A stretch of 64,000 nt of DNA, taken from NCBI RefSeq assembly GCF_036067295.1, contig NZ_CP107954.1, positions 62,001-126,000 of the forward strand, written 5' to 3'. The notes under the pieces were generated by a model. That model saw nothing but the letters and a program-made list of their open reading frames with translations, was not told the DNA's origin and ran no database searches. Below, piece by piece: positions 3,380-56,640 of this stretch; the stretch's first letter is position 1; each line of letters starts with the position of its first letter. This DNA comes from Kribbella sp. NBC_00382 (lineage in GTDB: Bacteria > Actinomycetota > Actinomycetes > Propionibacteriales > Kribbellaceae). Made by a program: the position numbers and the translations under genes.

Positions 3380-3826
3380 CCCCCGCCGCCTCGGAGCGAC
3401 CTCGGCGCACCTGCCTCCTCGCTGCCTCAGGCTCACTCGCTTGTAGTTCTGCCGAATGCCAACGCACGCACAACCGGCAAAACCCGGCCCACCTCACGCT
3501 CGTCGGACACCCCACAGCACGAGTTGTGCGTGCACAGCCGACCGCCTTTCACCCGGCCGGCGCCTTCGCCCGACTGCCATCGCCCCACGCTTCCATCGCC
3601 CCGCCTTTGCCTTTCTCTCGCCTCGCCACTACCGCCGCATGCCCGTGGCCGTGCGGGATGTGTCCCGCTCGACAGGTAGTACACCCCGAGACGTTGTACG
3701 CGAAAGCGCCGGCTGCGCTCAAGGTGCACTAGGTGGCGTGAACTACCTCCTGTCGAGCGGGACGTATCCCCTCGCGAACCTGGCGGGCAGCGTGGTGGCG
3801 GTCTGCGGGTGCGCGAGGATGGGGGC
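3380..3826 (+). other. Intergenic region without a credible gene
   Basis: Several open frames cross this 447-base stretch on both strands, but none has a ribosome-binding site, a recognisable domain or a composition like neighbouring proteins. The only clear structure is the long inverted repeat at 3655-3770, annotated separately. Confidence 0.6.
3655..3770. repeat. Long imperfect inverted repeat (~30-bp arms)
   Basis: The left arm at 3655-3684 and right arm at 3738-3770 are reverse complements apart from a two-base insertion and a few substitutions. The shared core is CCCGCTCGACAGG, followed by TAGT and CAC at the same places in both arms. The spacer is 53 bases. The total size (~116 bp) is close to that of the palindromic element family found at 25.5, 49.0 and 56.4 kb, although the arm sequence differs. 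Confidence 0.85.
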
Positions 3827-10430: not shown

Positions 10431-10506
10431 GCGACCTTGAACATCAAGCGGCGACCTTGAACACGTTATTACTTGTTCAGGGTCGCCGCTTGGTGTTCAA
10501 GGTCGC
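10431..10506. repeat. Long near-perfect hairpin between convergent genes
   Basis: The left arm 10431-10464 and right arm 10475-10506 pair over about 32 bases with only a few mismatches, around a 10-base loop. Each arm contains GCGACCTTGAAC-type sequence, and the left arm repeats it directly (10431-10442 and 10451-10462). There is no T tract on either side, so it is not a classical intrinsic terminator. Its place between convergent genes would still let it act as a bidirectional transcript end or 3' stabiliser. Confidence 0.85.
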
Positions 10507-14650: not shown

Positions 14651-14706
14651 GCTCGGGAGCAGCTGGACTTCAGCCGCGACCGGACGTCGGAGCGCACCCG
14701 CCGACC

Positions 14707-14836
14707 GCGTGCGCCTCCCATCCGGACTTTCACCGTCGGTCCTGGAATTCCACCAGGTCAACCGGCCGAGATAAAGCTTCGACCGGGTCGCGGACTATAA
14801 CCGCCGGCTCGGAATTACACCGACCCCGGAGCACGC
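14707..14836 (-). promoter_or_regulatory. FMN riboswitch (RFN element)
   Basis: Read on the minus strand, the conserved FMN aptamer core is present in order: CTCCGGGGTCGGTGTAATTC, then GAGCCGGCGGTTATAGTC, a variable arm, GGTGGAATTCCAGGACC, GACGGTGAAAGTCCGGATG and GGAGG. It precedes ribD and would lower expression of the whole ribD-ribE-ribM-ribBA-ribH operon when FMN is plentiful. Exact ends are approximate. Confidence 0.95.
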
Positions 14837-14898
14837 GAGTGGGTTCACTCGTACTACGAGTGTGCCACGCCCCCCAACCACCACCAGGATCTGGGTCA

Positions 14899-25508: not shown

Positions 25509-25621
25509 CGGACCGCCACCACACACCAACCTCGCTCGCTCGCGCACCGCAGCGCCGACCCACCGCTCAATCGGCCAAGCTGGCGGGCGATTGACGCACG
25601 TTGGTGTGTGGTGGCGATCCG
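25509..25621. repeat. Palindromic element family, copy A
   Basis: The arms 25509-25530 and 25600-25621 are reverse complements at 21 of 22 positions. The left arm reads CGGACCGCCACCACACACC then AAC. The 69-base spacer contains a further 7-bp inverted repeat (TCAATCG with CGATTGA). It lies between cobM and cobK, both on the minus strand. Copies B and C are at 56411-56513 and 49033-49144. Confidence 0.9.
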
Positions 25622-49032: not shown

Positions 49033-49144
49033 CGGACCGCCAGCACTCACCAACCAGCAGGACGGGTGACCTCGCGTGATCGGCTGAGCGTGGGATACGC
49101 GGCGCCGGTTCGGGTGGGAGGCGTTGGTGAGTGCTGGCGGTCCG
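49033..49144. repeat. Palindromic element family, copy C
   Basis: The arms 49033-49054 and 49123-49144 are perfect reverse complements over 22 bp. The left arm reads CGGACCGCCAGCACTCACC then AAC, differing from copy A at arm positions 11 and 15, and both arms carry the matching change. The 68-base spacer contains a CGCGT/ACGCG dyad. It lies between the divergent FhuF-like gene and the unknown gene at 49177. Confidence 0.92.
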
Positions 49145-56410: not shown

Positions 56411-56513
56411 CGGACGCCACCACACACCAACCACAAGCCCGCCACCGCCACACCCACCTGCCAACGCTCAGCAGGACATGTGGGCGACACCTTGATGTGT
56501 GGTGGCGGTCCGG
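56411..56513. repeat. Palindromic element family, copy B
   Basis: The left arm at 56411-56431 reads CGGACGCCACCACACACC then AAC, one base shorter than copy A, and the right arm at 56492-56513 is its complement with one mismatch near the tip. The spacer is 60 bases. It lies between the fucose operon and a RidA remnant, and is followed at once by a second inverted repeat (56552-56640). Confidence 0.85.
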
Positions 56514-56551: not shown

Positions 56552-56640
56552 CCAGCCCATCAATGGCCGCGCAAAGCGCCGGTGCCCCGGCTGCGTTTGA
56601 GCGCGTGCTGGTCGCCCGATCCGGAGCATTGATGGGCTGG
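56552..56640. repeat. Second inverted repeat next to palindromic copy B
   Basis: CCAGCCCATCAATG (56552-56565) and CATTGATGGGCTGG (56627-56640) are perfect 14-bp inverted arms with a 61-base spacer. The size and placement resemble the main palindromic family, but the arm sequence is different. The 3' end lies just after the RidA remnant stop. Confidence 0.8.

Follow-up and report, generated by a model that had tools for sequence, protein, structure and literature searches.

Palindromic elements in the window

The window analysed here, a stretch of 64,000 nucleotides that corresponds to bases 62001-126000 of a single-contig 8.49-Mb genome, contains three palindromic elements, A, B and C, all of which are among its longest inverted repeats (Table 1). 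A sequence-only reading had reported these three copies, and all of them are present. In element C the 22-bp arms pair without a mismatch around a 68-bp spacer, while the arms of A and B pair with one or a few mismatches; arm positions 11 and 15 are C and A in elements A and B, but G and T on both arms of C, as that reading had described. The surrounding gene contexts differ among the three copies. Element A occupies the gap between a cobK-like gene and a cobalamin methylase-like gene on the same strand and is thus in a co-directional context, whereas B lies in a convergent and C in a divergent one. The spacers had been taken as unrelated, a description that has to be revised, because a core is common to them: it is present as CTGAGCGTG in C, with one mismatch in B, and in degenerate form in A, where it was read directly from the sequence and falls below the threshold of the automatic core search. 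The best reading of A, B and C is as short non-autonomous DNA elements.

Table 1. Palindromic elements of the window and their parts (window coordinates)
Feature	Position	Strand	Description
Element C	49033..49144	.	112 bp; arm subfamily CAGCACTCACCAAC; divergent intergenic region
Left arm of element C	49033..49054	+	100% complementary to the right arm
Core CTGAGCGTG of element C	49084..49092	+	51 bp from the left end, 52 bp from the right end
Right arm of element C	49123..49144	-	From the inverted-repeat listing of the window
Element A	25509..25621	.	113 bp; arm subfamily CACCACACACCAAC
Degenerate core of element A, ACCGCTCAA	25562..25570	-	About 53 and 51 bp from the ends
Element B	56411..56513	.	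102-103 bp; arm subfamily CACCACACACCAAC; 3' of an aldo/keto reductase gene
Core of element B, AACGCTCAG	56463..56471	-	One mismatch; 52 and 42 bp from the ends
Element D	56553..56639	.	Fourth element; architecture like A, B and C; arms CAGCCCATCAA; 40 bp from B
Inverted repeat I3	3655..3770	.	Probable related element; clade-3-type arms GTCCCGCTCGACAGGTAGTA
Inverted repeat I1	10431..10506	.	Probable related element; arms CTTGAACACCAAGCGGCGACC

The arms of element D are those found around the CAGCCCATCAA-type enzyme gene of the same genome (assembly positions 1906496-1907332). The inverted repeat I3 is probably another family of the A/B/C kind; its arms resemble those of loci L216, L217, L232 and L240, and the automatic core search returned no core within it. 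Locus L077, a remote homologue, has the arms of I1 on either side.

A genome-wide family with a shared core and helical spacing

The right-arm pattern matches the 8.49-Mb genome at 16 perfect sites and at many sites with one mismatch, most of them in facing pairs with a separation of about 101 or 112 bp. A two-arm pattern recovers 17 pairs in the window genome versus none for a reversed control, and it matches in 20 of the 58 genomes searched, all belonging to one genus, again with no match for the reversed control. Element numbers are far above chance. Arm sequence varies from genome to genome, and families with other arms are as common as the A/B/C arm family: GGCCATCACAA elements occur in 19 of 38 genomes, and the window genome itself holds 16 copies of CGACAGGAGGT elements and five of CAGCCCATCAA elements, element D being one of the latter.

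Each element is composed of an arm of about 22 bp, a spacer and a second arm, with the core CTGAGCGTG near the middle. This core is enriched in the elements that flank the enzyme gene, as its 7-mer CACGCTC or the complement occurs in 42 of 120 spacers compared to 1.4 expected from shuffles. The 75 listed clade-1 elements, measured from CCA to TGG with an allowed range of 70-100, fall into length classes of 76-77, 87-89 or 98-99 bp, with no lengths between them. The core lies 51 and 42 bp from the ends in solo elements of the window genome, as against 51/52 in C and 42/52 in B, and the distances from arm motif to core, taken per clade and not pooled, are 40/31 in clade 1, 29/31 in clade 2a and 41/32 in clade 3. 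Element lengths and core-to-arm distances therefore step by about 10-11 bp, or one helical turn, which suggests recognition of duplex DNA by proteins positioned on one face of the helix. The family is probably read at the level of DNA, and probably mobile.

Co-varying arms had been proposed from the differences between A/B and C, and this proposal was examined in 77 elements by permuting right arms within each genome. At position 15 the arms agree in 72 elements versus 59.5 expected (p<0.0002), but at position 11 in 47 versus 46.2 expected (p=0.45). Of three further arm positions one has a weak excess (p=0.015) and two have none, giving clear covariation at one, weak covariation at one and none at three of the five variable positions. 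With covariation at position 15 and none at position 11, the difference between A/B and C is mainly one of arm subfamilies.

Some elements are clustered. A tandem-like array of seven listed elements of one subfamily, spaced by about 255-400 bp, is found in genome G026 (C21:97601-99372), and a smaller array of three elements at 207 bp in G015 (C137). Among the viral contigs searched there were only four distant or partial matches.

An AbiEi-Vsr enzyme gene between cognate palindromes

Two elements situated about 1 kb apart in the window genome enclose a single gene, an arrangement also seen in G031. The bracketed gene lies outside the window and encodes a 291-amino acid protein comprised of an AbiEi-like winged-helix domain and a Vsr/homing-endonuclease-like domain, with Pfam matches to MTES_1575 REase and AbiEi_4 (DUF559 in G031); its best named relative is from K. 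catacumbae (92%). PADLOC AbiEi models match the N-terminal region of all 32 aligned members. In an AlphaFold2 model of the enzyme (mean pLDDT 91.7), which was also compared to known structures by Foldseek, the predicted fold of residues 178-281 matches I-Bth0305I (3r3p; Z 12.2, 2.3 Å over 93 residues) and Vsr (1cw0; Z 9.9), and that of residues 1-175 matches the AbiEi antitoxin (Z 9.8). The nuclease part has acidic, histidine and arginine residues that scarcely vary among members. Inverted repeats of 23 bp in their promoters are the binding sites of AbiEi and Rv2827c (PMC7319586), and by analogy binding of the arms by the predicted domain of this enzyme is plausible.

Homologues of the enzyme occur in 36 of 38 genomes of the genus. 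In a set of 84 full-length Kribbella homologues, a palindrome (at least 16 of 20 pairs) lies upstream of 73 and downstream of 68, and 60 have both; the corresponding controls gave 0 of 84 for mid-gene windows and 3 of 240 for shuffled upstream windows. The distance from the end of the upstream element to the start codon is mostly 46-57 nt, or roughly 50 bp. In clade 1 the 3' element extends into the last codons of the gene, and its arm there encodes the residues PLTK. Both elements of a locus carry the same arms and loci of other clades carry different ones, with an arm similarity of 15.9 within a locus versus 5.9-8.9 between clades; the same-locus similarities sum to 954 against a permutation maximum of 558, in a test that ignores shared ancestry. 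To these computed features, namely core enrichment, bracketing and cognate pairing, we would add cleavage and transposition as inferred activities. At one locus of G026 (L216, contig C6) the spacers of the upstream and downstream elements are nearly identical, which suggests recent copying or gene conversion between the two.

The window genome carries an intact enzyme gene, L071, whose neighbours encode GH43, F5/8 type C and PhoD proteins; an adjacent AbiEii-like (DUF1814) toxin gene is absent from that locus. Only the Vsr-like gene was found between element-type ends, in a transposase scan that covered part of the families, and PF01797, the Y1/RAYT transposase, is absent from the window genome while control genomes were positive.

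One chromosomal site with several arm types

Comparison of flanking DNA places 32 loci from 31 genomes at one conserved chromosomal site, where orthologous surroundings enclose the enzyme and both palindromes of one of several arm types. The copies scattered elsewhere usually share their arms with the enzyme at this site. Elements of the GGCCATCACAA type number 8-27 per genome in the 12 genomes with that enzyme and are absent from 11 of 16 genomes with the other type (p=9e-6), and the reverse comparison gives p=0.001, both tests ignoring shared ancestry. Three genomes (G010, G012 and G025) possess a clade-1 enzyme, yet many elements of the other type, a mismatch that would be accounted for by recent exchange of the enzyme.

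In the window genome the conserved site holds the CAGCCCATCAA enzyme (L072), and L071 is a further enzyme gene at a site common to this genome and G026. The conserved site of G036 instead holds an enzyme whose arms, CACACACCAAC, are those of A and B, so these two elements are probably orphans of an enzyme that was lost or replaced in the window genome. A homologue split over two reading frames (L073 and L074; G000:C1:1270716-1271439) appears to be a broken clade-3 enzyme, and its genome still holds 16 elements of the clade-3 type.

Probable mobility of the elements

Comparison with G036, the closest relative by DNA match, distinguishes the elements of the window from one another. Elements A, C and D are absent from the orthologous sites, whereas B is present at its orthologous site with arms and core kept and the remainder of the spacer diverged. 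The intergenic DNA at A, C and D has diverged too far in G036 for an insertion junction to be placed to the base, and the best reading is that C and A were gained in the window lineage or lost in G036, and that B predates the split.

A recent burst is seen in a subfamily of nine copies in the window genome that are 94-100% identical over 101 bp and share the arm type of L071. Three of these (L033, L036 and L038) have flanks unlike those of all other copies of the burst, and the elements of L031 and L036 are 100% identical while the similarity outside them is at background level. The other six (L031, L032, L034, L035, L037 and L039) share parts of a larger repeat with ends CCGGAGTTCGTGATGTT, so some may have moved as part of it; every copy found of this larger repeat carries the burst element and none is without it, and hence no target duplication can be defined there. 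Flanks of the listed arm pairs display no evident target-site duplication, there being no base-exact empty site for comparison, and the genome comparisons revealed neither a transposition event nor an excision product. Element copy numbers are modest.

Occurrence beyond the genus

Among 148 genomes drawn from across the class, 35, representing 28 genera, have a homologue at E<1e-30 in a profile search. Among 29 non-Kribbella loci, several have same-arm palindromes on both sides (e.g. L260, L262, L271, L275, L280, L283 and L286) and some also have a GAGCGTG-like core; the rest have palindromes on one side only or none. The same bracketing thus appears in several other actinobacterial genera, as a supporting observation and not as a measured rate.

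Relation to known systems

Short intergenic elements of about 100 bp with terminal inverted repeats and multiple copies are familiar from the Correia/NEMIS and RUP MITEs. The Kribbella elements resemble these in their terminal inverted repeats and in having multiple near-identical copies at unrelated sites, but differ in bearing a core near the dyad and in lengths quantised by the helical repeat; in the flanks of the listed pairs no target-site duplication is evident. The attC site of integron cassettes is an unlikely counterpart, as there are no cassette arrays.

The closest parallel in organization is the REPIN/RAYT system, in which inverted conserved ends around a variable spacer are scattered through the genome and a single-copy enzyme gene is flanked by the same repeats (Bertels and Rainey 2011, PMC3116915). 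Both systems feature dispersed inverted pairs of conserved ends with a variable spacer, located between genes; in both, a distinctive enzyme gene is present once and is framed by these repeats, and the type of enzyme and the type of repeat go together. The enzymes themselves are different: RAYTs are Y1/HUH tyrosine transposases that act on single-stranded DNA, whereas here an AbiEi winged helix is joined to a Vsr-type nuclease and the element spacing points to recognition of duplex DNA. Clade-1 elements also have no GTAG terminus, their arms starting with CGGACC and ending with GGTCCG or GTACCG. Since the enzyme is not of the Y1 type and no Y1 transposase was found in the genome, the Kribbella system is not a member of REPIN/RAYT.

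The individual domains have known counterparts in other settings. The N-terminal fold is shared with the AbiEi and Rv2827c type IV antitoxins, from which the enzyme differs in its C-terminal Vsr-type nuclease, in repeats scattered genome-wide and in the lack of an AbiEii toxin neighbour at L071. The predicted fold of residues 178-281 and its conserved acidic, histidine and arginine residues are shared with Vsr and with I-Bth0305I, a Vsr-like homing endonuclease of the EDxHD type; unlike I-Bth0305I, the gene is located between two complete palindromic elements rather than in an intron or intein. In the open-licence literature, no link of DUF559, MTES_1575, AbiEi or Vsr to palindromic elements was found.

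Proposed mechanism and alternatives

Movement of the elements in trans by the AbiEi-Vsr protein is the likeliest mechanism, and we consider it probable. The system as a whole is best read as one in which a single-copy enzyme spreads non-autonomous elements in trans, an arrangement that would have converged on that of REPIN/RAYT. Mobilisation of a REP-like element in trans was among the candidates of the sequence-only reading, and it gains support from copies genome-wide, from the enzyme gene that these arms enclose, from a recent near-identical burst in unrelated flanks, and from presence or absence between related genomes. Further copies are many and covariation holds at one of the two positions only, and that reading is, overall, partly supported.

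The family, its bracketing, cognate arm types, shared core, helical spacing and recent burst in unrelated flanks were all computed here, and we infer that the protein binds the arms and cuts the DNA, and that cutting drives copying; the nuclease is linked to copying by association. A dedicated enzyme would bind each arm through its winged-helix domain, and the near-central core would be a second putative recognition site, possibly the place of nuclease action. Two enzyme molecules, one per arm, would sit on the same helical face, as the spacing implies; their nuclease domains, to judge from the fold and conserved residues, would then nick or cut the element, and host repair would presumably copy it into a new site. 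The enzyme gene, in single copy at the conserved site and between two complete elements of its own arm type, would stay in place while its elements spread through, and turn over in, the rest of the genome.

A more far-reaching proposal, for which we judge the evidence to be evenly balanced, is that of a class-wide actinobacterial system, in which single AbiEi-Vsr nucleases located between their own palindromes spread duplex-recognised elements, representing a second and independent origin of a REPIN/RAYT-like arrangement with copying by a restriction-type nuclease. If this is true, the partnership between scattered palindromes and a captive enzyme has been acquired at least twice with unrelated enzymes, and the question of why hosts keep such enzymes becomes testable by comparison. 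It would also provide a role for the large AbiEi/DUF559/MTES_1575 protein group, whose members databases presently describe as resembling antitoxins or leave without a function. Exchange of arm types at one conserved site would serve as a natural experiment on how nuclease and DNA-site specificity change together.

The main rival, though an unlikely one, is that the elements are operators: an AbiEi-like repressor would control its own gene through the upstream one, the scattered copies would be its regulon, and the nuclease domain would be used elsewhere, as in defence. The near-constant distance of 46-57 nt to the start codon would suit an operator, and AbiEi and Rv2827c do autoregulate by binding inverted repeats (PMC7319586). 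Against this reading stands the second complete element at the 3' end of the gene, and a regulon needs neither copies in co-directional, convergent and divergent gaps, nor presence that differs between related genomes, nor a near-identical burst in unrelated flanks. The two roles are compatible, and for the upstream element autoregulation may hold alongside mobilisation in trans.

It is less probable still that the elements are ordinary MITEs moved by some other transposase, with the nuclease gene as a passenger caught between two copies. Such elements would have short terminal inverted repeats and could show a recent burst, as is the case here, and the transposase scan of the genome covered part of the families; however, arm sequence changes with enzyme clade both at the two ends of the gene and genome-wide, and loci of several other genera are bracketed in the same manner by arms of unrelated sequence. 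A passenger gene would show no such link to arm type, and this disfavours the reading. Even more remote is a defence or addiction module in which the nuclease is directed at DNA that is invading or lacks a mark, with the palindromes as self-marks or decoys. The N-terminal PADLOC matches (32 of 32) and the occurrence of related nuclease folds in restriction enzymes are consistent with such a module, but L071 has GH43 and F5/8 type C neighbours in place of an AbiEii-like gene, and there is no link to phage.

Least credible of all is a functional RNA in which the arms form a stem, whether as a terminator, a structured 3' element or the novel non-coding RNA put forward in the sequence-only reading: long inverted repeats can indeed fold as RNA and one arm position co-varies, but the helical-turn steps in length, the independent variation at other arm positions including position 11, the long loops and the absence of any Rfam family match at A, B and C in a search of the window all argue against it, and the three gene contexts do not fit a terminator or 3' element. 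An intrinsic terminator in particular is rejected on loop length and gene contexts. The sole match of the Rfam search of the window was an FMN riboswitch (RF00050) at 14706-14837, with a score of 94.8 bits.
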